From Candidatus Cetobacterium colombiensis (GTDB taxonomy: Bacteria > Fusobacteriota > Fusobacteriia > Fusobacteriales > Fusobacteriaceae): a stretch of DNA of 45,862 nt. Numbering within the stretch: position 1 is the first letter of the stretch; each line of letters begins with the position of its first letter. The translations under genes were made by a program, and so were the position numbers. Of this stretch, positions 7,941-15,809 are shown in pieces. The notes under the pieces are model-generated. The model did no database searches and was not told where the DNA came from. It was given only the letters and a program-made list of their open reading frames with translations. The DNA lies in assembly GCF_033962415.1 (NCBI RefSeq), contig NZ_JAVIKH010000017.1, forward strand, positions 1 through 45,862, in the 5' to 3' direction.

Positions 7941-9665
7941 TTATTTCAAGATTGTAAATATAAAAATAGTACCTTTCCCTTCCTTAGAAATTACATCAAT
8001 TTTTCCACCACAACGCTCTACAAGTTCCTTAACAATAGAAAGTCCTAAACCTGTTCCAGCTTTATTACTTGTTCTAGCTTTATCAACTCTATAGAATCTT
8101 TCAAATATTTTTTCAATATCTTCAGATGATATTCCAACACCGTTATCTTTTACTCCAATTTTATATCTATTTTTTGTCTCAATTATAGATATTTCAATTT
8201 CTGGAGTTGAATTATTTTTATAAATTATTGCATTTTCAACTAAATTCTTTAATATTGTTAAAACTTTTTCAAAATCTATTTTTAATTCATTTTCTTTATT
8301 TAATAAATTTAAATTATATGATATCTTAGCATTTGTTGTTTTTATTCTTTCATTTAATACTGCATGCAACTCAGTTTTTAATCTACTAACTGGAATTTTT
8401 TCTATATTTACTATATTAGAACTTTCAATTTTACTTATATTCAAAAAATCTATTATAATATTTTCTAACTTATCTATATTATTTTTTATAGTTTTTATAA
8501 ATTGTGCTCTTAAAGGCTCAGGTGCATCTTCTAATGCAATTACATATCCCTTTATATTCGTCAGTGGTGTTTTTAATTCATGACTTACGTTACTTATAAA
8601 TGTTTTTTGAACTTCAATCATTCCTCTAGTTTGAGTTATATCTTTCACTGATAAAAGATATCTTTGATCTTGCTCTAAAAACTTTATATTTACACTAAAA
8701 TACCTTTTAAGTCTCAATACATACACTTCTGTTTTTTGATTTTGCTTTTCTAATATAGCTTTTTTCATAATATCAATAATTTCAATATCTTTTATTAAAT
8801 TCAAATAGTATGATTTATCTTTTTCATAAAGATAATTAAATTTACTATTTTTTATTATTAATTGTAACTTTTCATCAAAAAGACATATCGATGAATCAAT
8901 TGATGTTATTATTTGATGTAGTATTCTTTTTTCTCTATTTAAATTCACTATATTTTCAAGATTTTGTTTTTGCCACTTTTGAACAACATCCCATAAATTT
9001 AAAATCCACGGATCTTCCTCAAAATAAAGATTCTCTCCGTTACCTTTGTCTTCTAAAAAATTTTCAATAATTTCAATTTTTTGATACAAATCTCTTTTTA
9101 AGTAATTTTTATAAAAAGAATGAATTATAAAGTTTAAAATTGTAAAAAATAATAATTCAGCTAATAAAATTATTTTTAACATTTTCAATGTTTCACCATA
9201 ATTTTTAGAAACTCTAACAATTATTTTTTCTCCTTCTTTATTTATTCTTTCAACTGCATAGTAAGCCATTATTTCATCTGAAATAGTAGTTTTTCTTATA
9301 TCGAATCCTATACCTATATTTCTTACATCTCTTACTTCTCTTCTATTTCTATGATTTTCTAATTTTTCTTCTTCATTATATTTTCGAGAATCATATATAA
9401 CTTTTCCATCTAACTCTATTATATTAAATCTCATATCTGAATCTTTAAAAATTTGTTGATATTCATCTCTTCCATACTCTTTTATTAAATTTGATATAAT
9501 AAAAACATTTTCTCTTAAACTATTTTTAACTCCATCTTTATATAAATTTGATAAAAATGAAATATTCATTATTACAAAAATGATTTCTATTATGATTATA
9601 AAAAAAAGAGCAATTATTTCTTTTCTTCTAATCTGTACCCAACTCCTTTCACAGTCTTTATACAT
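7941..9665 (-). CDS. phoR: PhoR-like membrane sensor histidine kinase
   Basis: Inner-membrane kinase that phosphorylates the PhoB-like regulator encoded just upstream. The order is TM1 (about 17-37), an extracytoplasmic loop, TM2 (about 147-170), a PAS-like linker, HisKA with the phospho-acceptor His in FISNVSHELKTPLTN, the N box NLVENAIIYK, DNGVGI, the F-box FERFYRVD and the G2 box GTGLGLSIVKEL. The ORF opens with ATG at 9665, inside the regulator gene and without a ribosome binding site. AAAGGAG at 9649-9643 points to an ATT start at 9632 instead, giving 563 aa and a 19-nt overlap. The Pho role is inferred from the pst neighbours. Confidence 0.88.
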   Translation of the reverse strand: MYKDCERSWVQIRRKEIIALFFIIIIEIIFVIMNISFLSNLYKDGVKNSLRENVFIISNLIKEYGRDEYQQIFKDSDMRFNIIELDGKVIYDSRKYNEEEKLENHRNRREVRDVRNIGIGFDIRKTTISDEIMAYYAVERINKEGEKIIVRVSKNYGETLKMLKIILLAELLFFTILNFIIHSFYKNYLKRDLYQKIEIIENFLEDKGNGENLYFEEDPWILNLWDVVQKWQKQNLENIVNLNREKRILHQIITSIDSSICLFDEKLQLIIKNSKFNYLYEKDKSYYLNLIKDIEIIDIMKKAILEKQNQKTEVYVLRLKRYFSVNIKFLEQDQRYLLSVKDITQTRGMIEVQKTFISNVSHELKTPLTNIKGYVIALEDAPEPLRAQFIKTIKNNIDKLENIIIDFLNISKIESSNIVNIEKIPVSRLKTELHAVLNERIKTTNAKISYNLNLLNKENELKIDFEKVLTILKNLVENAIIYKNNSTPEIEISIIETKNRYKIGVKDNGVGISSEDIEKIFERFYRVDKARTSNKAGTGLGLSIVKELVERCGGKIDVISKEGKGTIFIFTILK

Positions 9666-10291
9666 TCAGTTAAAAAAGGAATTTTCTCTCTAAGTTTAGA
9701 TATGTAAACATCTACTGTTCTGTCTCCAGAATAATAATTACTTCCCCAAACTTTATCTAATATTTTTTCTCTACTTACAACAATTCCTTTATTTTTTACT
9801 AAAAGTAAAAGTAAATCGTATTCTTTTTTTGATAGTTCTACTTCTTCTCCATTATTTGTAACTAAATGTTTATCTTCATCAATTTCTAAATCTACAAAAC
9901 GATTTCTTATCTTTTTATTTTTTTCTTGTTGATTTAAAAGTTTCCTTCCCCTTAAAAGTAACTCTCTTGGATCAAATGGTTTTTTCATATAATCATCTGC
10001 TCCTATTTCTAATCCTTTTAATACATCTTCAACTTCTGTTTTAGCCGTTAACATTATTATATATGGTGATCCATACTCATCTTCCATTTCCTTTACTATT
10101 TTGGTGAAATTTATTCCATCTAGATTAGGTAACATTAAATCTAAAATTATAAGTTCATGTTTATCTTTTTTTAAATATTTTAATCCTTCTAATCCATCTG
10201 AAGCAACTGTTACTTTATATCCCTCTTTTGTAAAGTAATAATTTATTAATGCTTGTATTTCTAAATCATCTTCAACGACTAATACTTTCAT
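9614..10291 (-). CDS. phoB: PhoB/PhoP-like response regulator
   Basis: OmpR/PhoB-class DNA-binding regulator. The receiver domain (1-120) shows the acidic pair VVEDDLEIQ, the phospho-acceptor Asp in ELIILDLMLPNLDG, the conserved Thr in MLTAKTE and the Lys in YMKKPFD. The C-terminal winged helix (about 130-225) ends in VDVYISKLREKI and VKGVGYRL. It lies directly below pstS and overlaps the kinase gene, so it is the natural activator of the pst arrays at 11298-11381. A weak extended -10 promoter lies at 10323-10328; read-through from pstS would give positive feedback. The phoB name rests on context. Confidence 0.9.
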   Translation of the reverse strand: MKVLVVEDDLEIQALINYYFTKEGYKVTVASDGLEGLKYLKKDKHELIILDLMLPNLDGINFTKIVKEMEDEYGSPYIIMLTAKTEVEDVLKGLEIGADDYMKKPFDPRELLLRGRKLLNQQEKNKKIRNRFVDLEIDEDKHLVTNNGEEVELSKKEYDLLLLLVKNKGIVVSREKILDKVWGSNYYSGDRTVDVYISKLREKIPFLTECIKTVKGVGYRLEEKK

Positions 10292-10322
10292 TACATCTCT
10301 CCCTGTTTTTATATTTTTTTCT

Positions 10323-10328
10323 ATTATA
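10323..10328 (-). promoter_or_regulatory. Possible extended -10 promoter of phoB
   Basis: Minus strand TATAAT preceded by TGA. The matching -35 position falls in the arm of the pstS terminator and is not consensus, so this would rely on the extended -10 element. Confidence 0.4.
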
Positions 10329-10344
10329 TCATAAATATAAAAAG

Positions 10345-10371
10345 GGGTGTCCTTTTTTACTTAGGACACCC
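10345..10371 (-). terminator. Terminator between pstS and phoB
   Basis: GGGTGTCC/GGACACCC arms with an 11-nt loop. On the minus strand it is followed by CTTTTTATATTT, an interrupted T-run that may allow some read-through into phoB. Confidence 0.75.
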
Positions 10372-10377
10372 TTAAAA

Positions 10378-11214
10378 TTATTTTGCTGGAACGAATCCTT
10401 CTTCTGCCACTATCTTCTGTCCATCTTTAGAAAGTGCAAACTCTACTAATCCATTTACATCTTTATTATCTGTATCTAATACATACCAGTAAACTTCTCT
10501 TGCTATTGGATATTTTTTAGCTGAAACATTTTCAACACTTGGTGCTACTGAATCTACATTTAAACTTTTAACAGAATTATCCATGTATCCCATTCCTATA
10601 TATCCTATTGCATACTTATTATTTTTAACCTCTTGCTTTATTGCTTCGTTAGATGGCATATATAGTGTTTTAGTTCCATATTCTGCATCTTTTTTAGTAT
10701 TCTCTTCTCTTATTATATGTTCTTTAAAGAATTCATGAGTTCCTGATGATGAATCTCTCGATAAAACAACTATTTCTGCGTCATCTCCACCAAACTCTTT
10801 CCAATTTGTTACTTCTCCTCTAAATATTTTAGCCAAATCTTGATGAGTTAAGTTATTTACTTTATTATTTTCGTTTACTATTAACGTTATACCATCAAAC
10901 CCTAATACAACTTCATTTACTTTTAATCCTTTATCTGCAGCTGCTTTAGTTTCTTTTTCTTTTATACTTCTTGATGCCATTCCTATATCTGCAGTTCCAT
11001 TTATTAAAGATGAAATTCCAACTCCTGAACCTCCACCAGTTACAGCTATCCTAGCATCTTTATTTTTCCCCATGTACTCTTCCGCTATATACTGAGAAAC
11101 ATTTACTATTGTATCAGAACCTTTTACTTGTACAACTTTTGAAGCCATTGCTGTTGTTGAATAAGCTCCCATCATAGCCATTAACCCCATTAAAAAAAAC
11201 TTTCTCATTTTCAT
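10378..11214 (-). CDS. pstS: Phosphate ABC transporter, periplasmic phosphate-binding protein
   Basis: Periplasmic receptor that hands phosphate to PstCA. The 278-aa product has a signal peptide (about 1-24, ending TAMAS), the N-terminal KGSDTIVN strand-loop, the phosphate-binding segment AVTGGGSGVGISSLING and a second one, SRDSSSGTHEFF, near 150. The size suits the short PstS type. No lipobox cysteine is present, so it is soluble and not a lipoprotein. It is divergent from pstCAB-phoU and has its own hexamer array and -10 box (11283-11325). Confidence 0.95.
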   Translation of the reverse strand: MKMRKFFLMGLMAMMGAYSTTAMASKVVQVKGSDTIVNVSQYIAEEYMGKNKDARIAVTGGGSGVGISSLINGTADIGMASRSIKEKETKAAADKGLKVNEVVLGFDGITLIVNENNKVNNLTHQDLAKIFRGEVTNWKEFGGDDAEIVVLSRDSSSGTHEFFKEHIIREENTKKDAEYGTKTLYMPSNEAIKQEVKNNKYAIGYIGMGYMDNSVKSLNVDSVAPSVENVSAKKYPIAREVYWYVLDTDNKDVNGLVEFALSKDGQKIVAEEGFVPAK

Positions 11215-11282
11215 AATTTTCTACTCCTCCGATTAGATTTTATTTTTTAAATTATTTTTCTTTTTCTTCGCTTTCTAAAAAT

Positions 11283-11325
11283 AGTATAGACCATTGTTGT
11301 TAATCTAGTTTTAAAATAATGTAAA
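11283..11325 (-). promoter_or_regulatory. Pho-box-like array and -10 box driving pstS
   Basis: On the minus strand TTTACA (11325-11320), TTAAAA (11314-11309) and TTAACA (11303-11298) repeat at exactly 11-bp steps. After 9 nt comes TATACT (11288-11283). This matches the tandem TT(A/T)ACA repeats with 5-nt gaps bound by Bacillus PhoP. No consensus -35 is present, as expected for an activated promoter. Binding by the adjacent PhoB-like regulator is inference. Confidence 0.65.
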
Positions 11326-11342
11326 AAAATGGTAATTTTTTT

Positions 11343-11396
11343 TTTACACTATTTTTACATATAATTAATCATGTTTTAACAAGTAAGATATATGAT
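11343..11396 (+). promoter_or_regulatory. Pho-box-like array and -10 box driving pstC
   Basis: TTTACA (11343-11348), TTTACA (11354-11359), TTAATC (11365-11370) and TTAACA (11376-11381) repeat at exactly 11-bp steps. After 9 nt comes TATGAT (11391-11396). Design and spacing match the opposite array for pstS. The remaining bases of the 11215-11474 gap are AT-rich, with the GGAGGT site of pstC at the end. Confidence 0.68.
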
Positions 11397-11474
11397 ACTC
11401 TTATAGAATTTAATTTTGGTTTAATTTAATGTTTAAATTATTTTAATTTTTTAACATAGATTTAGGAGGTCGTC

Positions 11475-12356
11475 ATGCATAGTATAAGAAAGATTAAAGA
11501 TTCTTTTATGAGTAAATTGCACTCGGTAGTTGGAATTTTTAATATTCTAATTGTTATACTTATATTTATTTTCATTTTATTTAATAGTTTGTCTTTTTTT
11601 AAAGATTATCCACTTTCAAAATTTTTCTTTGGAACAGAATGGATTTCTCTTTCTGGAAAATATGGACTTTTACCACTTTTAGTAGGTTCGTTTTGGGTTA
11701 CAGTAGTAGCTTTAGCTATTTCTATTCCTGTTGGTATTATAACAACTATATATATTGCTGAATTTGCCAACAAAAAAACTAAAAAAATATTAAAAATAAT
11801 AATTGAAACTATGTCTGCACTACCCTCAGTTGTTTTAGGGTATTTAGGACTTTATGTTTTATCAGGATTTATAAAAGATACATTCCAATTAACTAGTGGT
11901 TTAAACGCTTTAACTGGAGGAATTATGCTTTCTTTTATGGCTATTCCTACTATTGTTAGTTTATCTGATGATGCTTTAAATGCTTTAGACAAATCTTATA
12001 GAGAAGCCTCTCTAGCACTTGGAGCAAATAAATTAGAAACAGTTTTTAAAGTTTTATTACCTGCTGCTTTTCCTGGAATATTTGCTGGTATTATGCTAGG
12101 TTTTGGTAGAATTATTGGTGAGACTATGGCAGTGCTTATGATCACTGGAAATGCACCTATAATGGCTACATCTCCACTTTCTCCTGTAAGAACTCTGACT
12201 GCAACTATTGCAGCTGAAATGGGAGAGGTTGTTCAAGGAAGTCAACATTATTACGCTTTATTTGCAATTGGTTTAGTATTATTTGCTATTAGTTTTTTAA
12301 CAAATAGTATCGCTGACAAATATATTCGTAAATCAAGAAAGTTAATGGGTAAATAG
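11475..12356 (+). CDS. pstC: Phosphate ABC transporter permease PstC
   Basis: One of two inner-membrane permeases forming the phosphate channel with PstA. The 293-aa product has about six TM helices. The cytoplasmic EAA loop (YREASLALGANKLETVFKV, about 175-193) contacts PstB, and the PstC signature GRIIGETMAVLMITGN follows near 212-227. It starts at ATG after AGGAGG and is the first gene of the pstCAB-phoU operon, 13 nt before pstA. Confidence 0.96.
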   Translation: MHSIRKIKDSFMSKLHSVVGIFNILIVILIFIFILFNSLSFFKDYPLSKFFFGTEWISLSGKYGLLPLLVGSFWVTVVALAISIPVGIITTIYIAEFANKKTKKILKIIIETMSALPSVVLGYLGLYVLSGFIKDTFQLTSGLNALTGGIMLSFMAIPTIVSLSDDALNALDKSYREASLALGANKLETVFKVLLPAAFPGIFAGIMLGFGRIIGETMAVLMITGNAPIMATSPLSPVRTLTATIAAEMGEVVQGSQHYYALFAIGLVLFAISFLTNSIADKYIRKSRKLMGK

Positions 12357-12369
12357 GAGGAAGATTAAA

Positions 12370-13209
12370 ATGAAATTTTTAAAAGGAAATAGTGGTGCTG
12401 CTATCGAATTATTTATAAAAGTAGTCGCTTTGATGACTGTGATACCTATCTTTCTAATTTTAGGTTACATCATTTATAAAGGTGTCCCTGCAATATCTTG
12501 GGATTTTTTAACAGAAGTCCCTAAAAGAGGAATGAGAGCTGGAGGTATATTTCCTGCGATTGTAGGAACAATTTGCCTAACACTTGGAACTATTGCTGTA
12601 TCTGTGCCTTTTGGAGTTTTTACTGGAGTTTATCTTGTAGAATATGCAAAAGATAACTTATTAACAAGAATTATAAATTTAACAATAATAAATCTAGCTG
12701 GTATCCCTAGTATCATTTACGGTCTTTTTGGAATGGCTCTATTCGTTATATATTTTAAATTAGGAGTTTCTATTTTATCAGGTTCTTTAACTCTTGGTAT
12801 TATGTGTCTTCCTGTTATAATAACTGCAACAAGAGAAGCTCTTTTAGCAGTTCCAAATAGTTTAAGAGAAGCTTCTCTGGCACTTGGAGCAACAAAATGG
12901 GAAACTATTTCAAAAGTTGTAATTCCTGCAGCACTTCCTGGAATATCAACTGGAGTTATTCTAAGTATTTCAAGAGCTGCTGGTGAAACTGCACCAATAT
13001 TATTTACTGCTGCTGCATTTTATCTGCCATTTTTACCAACATCAATCTTTGATCAGGTTATGGCATTACCTTACCACTTATATGTTATCTCAACACAAGT
13101 TCCAAATATGCCTCAAAGCAATATGCACGGAACATTATTCGTTTTAGTCTTTATAACTGTTGGATTTAACCTTATAGGTGCATACATTAGAAATAAATTT
13201 GAAAAATAA
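12370..13209 (+). CDS. pstA: Phosphate ABC transporter permease PstA
   Basis: Partner permease of PstC in the inner membrane. The 279-aa product has about six TM helices, the EAA loop LREASLALGATKWETISKV (about 165-183) and SRAAGETAPILFTAAAF typical of PstA. AGGAGGA precedes the ATG. It lies 13 nt after pstC and 25 nt before pstB in the same operon. Confidence 0.96.
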   Translation: MKFLKGNSGAAIELFIKVVALMTVIPIFLILGYIIYKGVPAISWDFLTEVPKRGMRAGGIFPAIVGTICLTLGTIAVSVPFGVFTGVYLVEYAKDNLLTRIINLTIINLAGIPSIIYGLFGMALFVIYFKLGVSILSGSLTLGIMCLPVIITATREALLAVPNSLREASLALGATKWETISKVVIPAALPGISTGVILSISRAAGETAPILFTAAAFYLPFLPTSIFDQVMALPYHLYVISTQVPNMPQSNMHGTLFVLVFITVGFNLIGAYIRNKFEK

Positions 13210-13234
13210 TCTCAATTTCGGAGGAATATAAATT

Positions 13235-13996
13235 ATGAAACAAGACGTTAGAATATCTGTTAAAGATTTCAATTTTTATTACGGTGATTATAAAGCTTTA
13301 AAAGGTATCAACATGGATATATTAAAAAATAAAGTTACTGCTCTTATTGGACCATCTGGATGTGGAAAATCAACTTTCTTAAGATCATTAAATAGAATGA
13401 ATGATCTTATATCTGGAGTGAAATATGAAGGTGAAATATTATTAGATGATCAAAATATATTTGATAAACAATTTGATATTGTTGAACTTAGAAAAAAAGT
13501 AGGAATGGTTTTCCAAAAGCCAAACCCTTTCCCAAAGTCTATTTATGAAAATTTAGTTTATGCACCTAAACTTCACGGAGAAACTGATAAGAAAAAATTA
13601 GATGAAATTGTTGAATCATCTTTAAAAGCGGTTGCTCTTTGGGATGAAGTTAAAGATAAATTACATCAATCAGCTTTAGGATTATCTGGTGGACAACAAC
13701 AAAGACTTTGTATTGCTAGAGCAATTTCAATCAATCCAGAAATACTATTAATGGATGAGCCTACATCGGCCCTTGATCCAATTTCTACTTCTAAAATTGA
13801 AGAATTAATTGTTGAACTTGCTAAAAATTATAGTATTGTTATTGTTACACACAACATGCAACAAGCATCTAGAATATCAGATTATACTGGTTTTTTCTAT
13901 CAAGGAGTTTTAGAAGAATTTGATGAAACATCAAAAATCTTTACTACTCCAAGAGTTAAGAAAACTGAAGATTATATAACAGGAAAATTTGGATAA
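13235..13996 (+). CDS. pstB: Phosphate ABC transporter ATPase PstB
   Basis: Cytosolic ATPase that powers PstCA. The 253-aa product shows Walker [10 protein letters not shown] (about 38-46), the PstB-type Q-loop [16 protein letters not shown], the signature [14 protein letters not shown], Walker [14 protein letters not shown] and the H-loop [10 protein letters not shown]. It has a CGGAGGA site before the ATG and sits between pstA and phoU. Confidence 0.97.
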
Positions 13997-14008
13997 AAAG
14001 GAGATTTT

Positions 14009-14701
14009 ATGAGAACTTTAAACGAATCTTTAAAAGCTTTAGATGAACACTACTTAGAAACATTAAAATATGTTGGAAGAAATTTTGATGTTAATTTAGA
14101 AATGCTTCAAAATAATGGTTTTAATCCAACTCTTTATGGAGAAGCAAAAATGATTGAAGACTTTATCAACGCTTTTGAAGTAAAATTAAAAGAGGATTCT
14201 ATAGTTACGATGGCTAGATTTCAGCCAGCAGCTAAAAATCTTAGAAAATTAGTTATGATTATCAATAGTGTTAGAGTACTTGAAAGAATGGGAGATCTTT
14301 TAAAAGCTAATCTTACTTTAATTAAAGATATAGAAAAAAAATCTCCAAACCTTGCATATGCTTTAAGTGAAAAAGTTTTACCTATAGCAAAAAAAATTAG
14401 AGGTCTTTTTCAAATGTATGTTGATGCTTTCTTAAATGAAGATGTTAGTTTACTTTATAACGTTTTATATCTTGATGAAGAAGTTGATGATTTAATCGAT
14501 TCTAATACAGAATATTTTTTAACTAAAATGAAAGAAACTCCAGATAACGTTGTTGGAGGTTCTGAACTTATGCTATTAGATAAAAAGTTTGAGAGACTGT
14601 CAGATCATATAATACATTTAGTAAGTGATTTAATTTATATTCTAAACGGAGAAAATACTAGAAAGTCACAACTTGAAAGTAAAAGCAAAGGGAACCTATA
14701 A
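14009..14701 (+). CDS. phoU: Phosphate signalling regulator PhoU
   Basis: Cytosolic all-helical protein that couples the Pst transporter to the PhoR kinase and holds the Pho response off when phosphate is ample. The 230-aa product has two related three-helix repeats; the metal-binding style motif ERMGDLLK appears near residue 93 and ERLSDHIIHLV near 195, one in each half. It starts 12 nt after pstB and ends inside a terminator hairpin shared with the convergent ispA. Confidence 0.93.
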   Translation: MRTLNESLKALDEHYLETLKYVGRNFDVNLEMLQNNGFNPTLYGEAKMIEDFINAFEVKLKEDSIVTMARFQPAAKNLRKLVMIINSVRVLERMGDLLKANLTLIKDIEKKSPNLAYALSEKVLPIAKKIRGLFQMYVDAFLNEDVSLLYNVLYLDEEVDDLIDSNTEYFLTKMKETPDNVVGGSELMLLDKKFERLSDHIIHLVSDLIYILNGENTRKSQLESKSKGNL

Positions 14702-14713
14702 AAGGTTCCCTTT
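14687..14713. terminator. Terminator embedded in the 3' end of phoU
   Basis: AAAGGGAACC/GGTTCCCTTT around a 7-nt loop, with five T on the plus strand. The left arm and loop lie in the last phoU codons and stop, and the T-run touches the ispA stop at 14714. The minus-strand T-run is broken, so it serves phoU better than ispA. Confidence 0.8.
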
Positions 14714-15595
14714 TTAATTTTCCCTTATTCCTATATAATCAGCTAATTCATTAAAAATTTCCACTTTTTCTTTTGGAAAAATTTCTAAACTTTTTTTAGC
14801 TTCTTCTAAAACTTCTTTTAATATCTCTTTACTTTTGTTGAGCCCAAACAAACTTGGATAAGTAGTTTTTTCAAGTTCTAAATCACTTCCTACAGGCTTT
14901 CCTATCTTTTCAAATTCACCTTCAATATCTAAAATATCATCTTTTATTTGAAAAGCTAGTCCAATTCCCTCTGCATATTTTACTAAAGCATCATATTCAT
15001 CTTTTGTAGAATTACAAATTATAGCTCCTATTTCAATAGGAAGTTTTATTAATTTACCTGTTTTATTTTCATGAATATATTTCAAAATATCTAAAGAGAC
15101 CTTTTTTTTCTCACTTTCTATATCTATAGTTTGGCCACCTATCATTCCGTTTATTCCTGCATATCTTGATGTCATTCCTATAATTTTTAAAAGCTTTTCA
15201 GGTGATACCTCTTTAGTTTCTTCAGCAATTAAAGAAAATGAATGTGTTAATAATGCATCTCCTATTAAAATTGCTTCTGCTTCACCAAATTTTTTATGTG
15301 TTGTTAATTTTCCACGTCTGTAGTCATCGTTGTCTAAAGCTGGTAAATCATCATGAACTAGAGAATATGAGTGAATTAATTCAATTGCAACTGCAACTGG
15401 AAGTCCCATTTCTTTTTTCATTCCATACAATTCGAGTACCATCAGCAAAAGAATCGGTCTTAATCTTTTACCACCATTTAAAACTGAGTATCTCATTCCA
15501 TCTGCTATTACATTAGGGTATTCTAATTTATTTAAATAATATTCTATATTTGAATCTACTAACTCTCTTTGATTTTTTAAATAGTCTTTAAGCAT
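14714..15595 (-). CDS. ispA: Short-chain polyprenyl (farnesyl/geranyl) diphosphate synthase
   Basis: Condenses isopentenyl with allylic diphosphates to farnesyl diphosphate, feeding undecaprenyl and quinone synthesis. The 293-aa product has the first aspartate-rich motif DDLPALDNDD (DDxxxxD, bacterial type II) near residue 80, GGQTIDIE, and the second motif QIKDDILDIEG near 220; GGKRLRP lies near 41. The long first motif fits bacterial FPP synthases. Its start overlaps the xseB end by 8 nt; this xseB-ispA pair is widespread. Geranylgeranyl specificity cannot be excluded. Confidence 0.93.
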   Translation of the reverse strand: MLKDYLKNQRELVDSNIEYYLNKLEYPNVIADGMRYSVLNGGKRLRPILLLMVLELYGMKKEMGLPVAVAIELIHSYSLVHDDLPALDNDDYRRGKLTTHKKFGEAEAILIGDALLTHSFSLIAEETKEVSPEKLLKIIGMTSRYAGINGMIGGQTIDIESEKKKVSLDILKYIHENKTGKLIKLPIEIGAIICNSTKDEYDALVKYAEGIGLAFQIKDDILDIEGEFEKIGKPVGSDLELEKTTYPSLFGLNKSKEILKEVLEEAKKSLEIFPKEKVEIFNELADYIGIREN

Positions 15596-15809
15596 CTATA
15601 TCAACCTCTAGATGAATTTTTTCATCTTCTGAAGTTACTTTTATTATTTTTCCTTCTGCTTTATTTAAAATATCTGAAGATTTTTTTAATAGTTTCATAG
15701 CTTTCTCATACTCTTTTATTGATTCATCTAAAGATAACTCTCCTTTATCTAATTTATCAATTATTATATCAATTTCATTAATATTATATTCAAAACTATC
15801 TTTTTTCAT
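15588..15809 (-). CDS. xseB: Exodeoxyribonuclease VII small subunit
   Basis: Small helical subunit that binds XseA to form exonuclease VII, which degrades single-stranded DNA. The 73-aa product has the family core IDKLDKGELSLDESIKEYEKAM, quoted in part (DKGELSLDESI), in a helical hairpin. AAAGGAGG lies at ideal spacing before the ATG. xseA is not in this window. It lies 13 nt after rsmD and overlaps ispA. Confidence 0.92.
   Translation of the reverse strand: MKKDSFEYNINEIDIIIDKLDKGELSLDESIKEYEKAMKLLKKSSDILNKAEGKIIKVTSEDEKIHLEVDIDA

Follow-up and report, generated by a model that had tools for sequence, protein, structure and literature searches.

Oppositely oriented Pho-box arrays between pstS and pstC of Candidatus Cetobacterium colombiensis, probably two operators of the Bacillota type

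The phosphate-uptake genes of Candidatus Cetobacterium colombiensis diverge from an intergenic region in which hexamers resembling TTTACA recur on both strands. The question raised by this locus is whether these repeats are genuine regulatory sites and, if so, of which kind they are, what reads them, and whether the two strands carry one operator or two. The window, meaning the whole stretch of DNA that was analysed, is 45,862 nucleotides long and corresponds to contig C17 of a source genome of 2.80 Mb in 92 contigs. The genes of the locus, with a hairpin that lies among them, are as follows.

7941..9665, minus strand: sensor histidine kinase, PhoR/PnpS-like (best NCBIfam match PnpS, NF046044, 254.5 bits, below the cut-off of 400)
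9614..10291, minus strand: response regulator of the OmpR/PhoB family, presumed to read the arrays (best NCBIfam match PhoB, TIGR02154, 191 bits, below the cut-off of 296)
10345..10371, minus strand: terminator-like hairpin and U-run between pstS and phoB (-17.7 kcal/mol, z -3.67)
10378..11214, minus strand: pstS, phosphate-binding protein (TIGR02136, 245.5 bits, above cut-off)
11475..12356, plus strand: pstC (TIGR02138, above cut-off)
12370..13209, plus strand: pstA (TIGR00974, above cut-off)
13235..13996, plus strand: pstB (TIGR00972, above cut-off)
14009..14701, plus strand: phoU (TIGR02135, 104.3 bits, below the cut-off of 130)

An earlier note, made from the letters of the window, placed four hexamers on the plus strand and three on the minus strand, each at exact 11-bp steps. 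Direct reading gives the same coordinates and the same step: TTTACA at 11343, TTTACA at 11354, TTAATC at 11365 and TTAACA at 11376 on the plus strand, and TTTACA at 11325-11320, TTAAAA at 11314-11309 and TTAACA at 11303-11298 on the minus strand. As had also been described, the final repeat in both directions is TTAACA, followed by 9 nt and a -10 box. The elements of the intergenic region are listed here.

11283..11288, minus strand: -10 box TATACT of the pstS promoter, 9 nt past the last repeat
11298..11336, minus strand: Pho-box array of the pstS(-phoBR) promoter, ATTACC (decayed)-N5-TTTACA-N5-TTAAAA-N5-TTAACA
11337..11342, no strand: A/T centre between both arrays, 6 nt
11343..11381, plus strand: Pho-box array of the pstC promoter, TTTACA-N5-TTTACA-N5-TTAATC-N5-TTAACA, 11-bp steps
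11391..11396, plus strand: -10 box TATGAT of the pstC promoter, 9 nt past the last repeat

All seven hexamers originally counted are present, but the minus array has a fourth. In an alignment with relatives, most of them have TTTACA at the position where the window has ATTACC (11336-11331), and the latter is read from this alignment as a decayed copy of the outermost minus repeat. Because the alignment reveals this additional repeat, the layout in the window is 4+4 with a 6-nt centre. The identical geometry that had been pointed out on the two sides is indeed seen, but it is expected from two copies of one standard operator and needs no special paired device. A -35 hexamer is absent from both window promoters, and a scan of positions 9500-15700 against Rfam found no known RNA.

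The simplest objection is that the arrays are chance repeats of a very AT-rich spacer, which contains many T-runs. The best four-repeat score at period 11 is 22/24 on the plus strand and 21/24 on the minus strand, and every other period from 7 to 16 gives 19 or less. In 3000 dinucleotide shuffles, a score of 22 on either strand never appears, nor does 21 on both at once. The genome scan for TTWACA-N5-TTWACA that had been proposed returns 12 occurrences of this strict dyad in the genome, versus 1 for the reversed control. A looser pattern (TTWAMA three times, one mismatch allowed) gives 43/45 genome-wide against 51/41 for the control; this lack of enrichment, which could be held in favour of chance, is uninformative.

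Some of the strict dyads in this genome were rejected as Pho sites: four are inside a long open reading frame and three precede similar short ORFs. By eye, the three short ORFs resemble plasmid replication initiators, and a further TTACAC-like repeat can be seen ahead of the dyad. Dyads on contigs C14, C31, C48 and C52 (L393, L395, L396 and L397) lie, again as judged by eye, before a DEAD-box-helicase-like ORF and those three short ORFs.

Conservation was followed through a phylum sample of 98 genomes, with a PstC-like protein in 96 and a close one in 48. At 33 of the 48 close-PstC loci, from six Fusobacteriaceae genera, pstS and pstC are divergent. Arrays are found on both strands at 33/33 of these divergent loci (hexamer score at least 19/24), with a mean array score of 22.4 at period 11 versus about 16 at other periods, and at most of them a fourth repeat is seen on the minus strand. 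A spacing of 6 nt separates the arrays at 31 of the loci; the remaining two have 3 and 5 nt. Where the pst genes are in tandem, the loci of groups g8, g9, g10 and g15 have one plus-oriented array upstream of pstC, and in group g14 pstC has no array, with one found upstream of pstS in the genome examined (G055). Thus the arrays follow promoters, since tandem loci carry a single array before pstC or, in G055, before pstS. Two genomes with a distant PstC (G091 and G092) gave no array. The earlier note had made conservation of the 11-bp hexamer period in relatives its refuting test, and the period is kept in all 33 divergent loci as well as in the tandem loci.

The distance to the promoter is equally regular. 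In a set of 75 fusobacterial arrays, selected on hexamers only and not phylogenetically independent, TAnnnT occurs exactly 9 nt past the last repeat in all 75, and other offsets from 3 to 19 reach at most 21%. Because the arrays are conserved in relatives, chance is refuted as their origin; with the shuffles, the specificity for period 11, the spread across genera and this -10 register also against it, its probability is practically nil. The same 75 arrays show that the third repeat is systematically deviant: it has the C in 4 of them, versus 74, 75 and 75 for the first, second and fourth repeats. With the -10 hexamer taken to span -12 to -7, the third repeat would occupy about -38 to -33, in the region of the -35 element.

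Which known operator do the arrays resemble? A likeness to the tandem repeats of Bacillus PhoP had been suggested, and Bacillota pstS promoters turn out to have an identical module, including the 9 nt to the -10. Upstream of pstS, 39 of 40 Bacillota loci have an array that scores at least 19 at period 11, and 37 of the 40 show the full module: four repeats with a period of 11 bp, the third of them without C, and a -10 box 9 nt past the last. Like the PhoP core binding region of the B. subtilis type, with its four TTWACA-like hexamers at 11 bp, the window has direct TT(A/T/C)ACA-like repeats at 11-bp steps and the 9-nt distance to the -10. The two groups also agree in the rarity of the third-repeat C (1/39 Bacillota and 4/75 fusobacterial arrays) and in TAnnnT at 9 nt past the fourth repeat (37/39 and 75/75). 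They differ in detail: the third repeat is TTAAAA in Bacillota and mostly TTAATA in fusobacterial arrays, and the fourth repeat is often TTAATA in Bacillota (C in 18/39), whereas the fusobacterial fourth repeat keeps its C in 75/75. In addition, fusobacterial pst genes diverge and have an array on each side, and the host is a diderm.

The pho box of E. coli PhoB (phoA, pstS) is similar in having 11-bp direct repeats beside the -10 that replace the -35, and E. coli pstS likewise has four half-sites of which the third is atypical (CTGTCAT, CTGTCAT, CTTACAT, CTGTCAC). However, the E. coli half-site is CTGTCAT rather than TTTACA, and with half-sites aligned on CA, the -10 of phoA and pstS is 2 bp further away. 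The window arrays were searched for half-sites of the CTGTCAT type and have TTTACA/TTAACA instead. Because the module matches that of Bacillota pstS, while the E. coli half-sites and -10 distance differ, the fusobacterial operator is assigned to the Bacillota form; a diderm phylum, Fusobacteriota, would thus use this form down to the 9-nt promoter register. In Streptomyces, the two divergent phosphate promoters of phoU/phoRP are served by PhoP boxes of one intergenic region; here, unlike that case, there are two complete arrays in opposite orientation, one for each promoter. The PHO box is defined as an 11-nt direct repeat in PMC4415409. No description of Pho boxes in Fusobacteriota was found in the literature searched. 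As far as comparison of sequences can tell, the switch is real, well conserved and mostly ordinary, the same as in Bacillus-type bacteria.

Our reading of the locus, to which we give a probability of about 90%, is that the window contains two separate and complete Bacillota-type Pho operators, one per divergent promoter, that would activate pst under low phosphate. What can be read from the DNA is that the arrays exist and are conserved, that the -10 keeps its register and that target genes are shared; the identity of the regulator, activation and the phosphate signal are what we infer. Under low phosphate, the kinase at 7941-9665 would phosphorylate the response regulator at 9614-10291, whose phosphorylated monomers would line up head-to-tail along each array, bound to its four hexamers at 11-bp spacing. 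The row of monomers would stop 9 nt before the -10, covering the usual -35 region. So placed, it could substitute for the missing -35 and recruit RNA polymerase in both directions, for pstCAB-phoU and for pstS. The phoBR genes follow pstS on the same strand, and the strong terminator-like hairpin at 10345-10371 separates them from it. Because of this hairpin, read-through from the pstS promoter into phoBR would be limited, and it may give modest positive autoregulation.

The opposite polarity, in which the bound regulator occludes RNA polymerase and the arrays repress, has a precedent, as PhoP also represses some Bacillus promoters (Liu et al. 1998, as cited in PMC4415409 and PMC6232261). We think repression most improbable here: both promoters are without a -35 hexamer, every array has 9 nt between its last repeat and the -10, like the Bacillota pstS promoters, and the layout from array to -10 is similar to that of E. 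coli phoA. The claim of the earlier note that these are two divergent, activator-dependent promoters with Bacillus-PhoP-like arrays is thus strengthened by the conservation, by the Bacillota module and by the sites at phosphate genes described below.

Naming the reader of the arrays is less direct. The regulator at 9614-10291 scores below the PhoB cut-off and the genome contains eight other matches to that model, so it was assigned by synteny; the name PhoB is presumed, given by position and neighbours only. The kinase scores 216 bits against the PhoR model, below the cut-off of 334. Another OmpR-family regulator of the genome might read the arrays instead, as two of the nine PhoB-model matches score slightly above the one in the window. 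Yet only 9614-10291 is encoded beside the arrays, and a phoB gene adjoins pstS in 32/33 divergent loci; the targets are phosphate genes, and Bacillota pstS promoters have the same module. We therefore consider a different reader very unlikely.

Alternatively, the two arrays could form one cooperative operator of eight sites, with regulators touching across the 6-bp centre and coupling the two promoters. The constancy of the gap across six genera speaks for this, as does a scan of GTDB genomes for exact head-to-head dyads with gaps of 0-30, which gave at least 119 stretches: among the 80 stretches listed, all gap-6 full 4+4 matches (L194, L203, L207 and L227) are Fusobacterium or Cetobacterium pst loci. 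When indels were counted on a PstS+PstC tree, however, the gap was found to change length 2 times in 6 nt, and the flanks 24 times in about 53 nt and 27 times in about 48 nt, which leaves the argument from a fixed 6-nt gap unsupported. Moreover, single arrays appear to work as units at tandem pst loci and at other regulon genes. Since so short a gap would be expected to stay this constant, two independent operators are the simpler reading, and coupling across the centre seems unlikely. The loss of C from the third repeat might be a functional promoter feature, e.g. a site shared by the regulator and sigma region 4, and not tolerated decay. Combined with an eight-site operator tying pstS-phoBR to pstCAB-phoU expression, this makes a joint proposal that we regard as doubtful. 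The deviant third repeat, common to Fusobacteriota and Bacillota, can be probed by mutation.

Further sites were sought with a profile, R1, built from 47 arrays; because R1 includes the -10, the 9-nt spacing in targets found with it is not independent evidence. In the genome of the window, it gives 41.1 bits (E 4.6e-10) for the plus array and 26.8 bits (E 1.3e-5) for the minus array, both of which are in its training set. Beyond these, R1 finds the promoters of a UgpA-like permease on contig C7 (E 8.4e-8) and of a CehA/McbA metallohydrolase on C3 (E 2.3e-4), and a composite site, by reading 9 nt from TATTAT, precedes a second ABC permease on C3. Matches in relatives precede genes for Na/Pi cotransporters, alkaline phosphatases, PhnG of C-P lyase and Ppx/GppA, as well as PHP and HAD hydrolases, PstB and PstS; outside pst, they are about 30-170 bp upstream of their target genes. 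As for a Bacillota-type PhoP box, the sites thus stand upstream of phosphate-starvation genes across the genome. In the 13 Leptotrichiaceae-like genomes of group g21, which have no close PstC, R1 gave no match better than E 0.0015. From the profile and its matches come a motif whose binding can be tested and a first list of computed targets for the response of Fusobacteriota to phosphate starvation.

Two other sets of matches were observed. A strong array (L161, on contig C8 of genome G018, R1 E 1.1e-8) is 157 bp upstream of a gene for a LacI-family regulator, which has no evident link to phosphate. Genomes G109, G110 and G111 (Clostridia bacterium or bacterium, 1.3-2.0 Mb; L205, L215 and L253) have 15, 6 and 8 matches to the Pho-array model, with E up to 0.05, and no PstS match. 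Several of these matches form head-to-head pairs with about 20 nt between them and a -10 box at a distance of 9 nt. They adjoin genes for secreted or outer-membrane-like proteins and, in two of the genomes, a response-regulator gene; judging from the sequences, they may belong to a different regulon of the OmpR family that shares this geometry.
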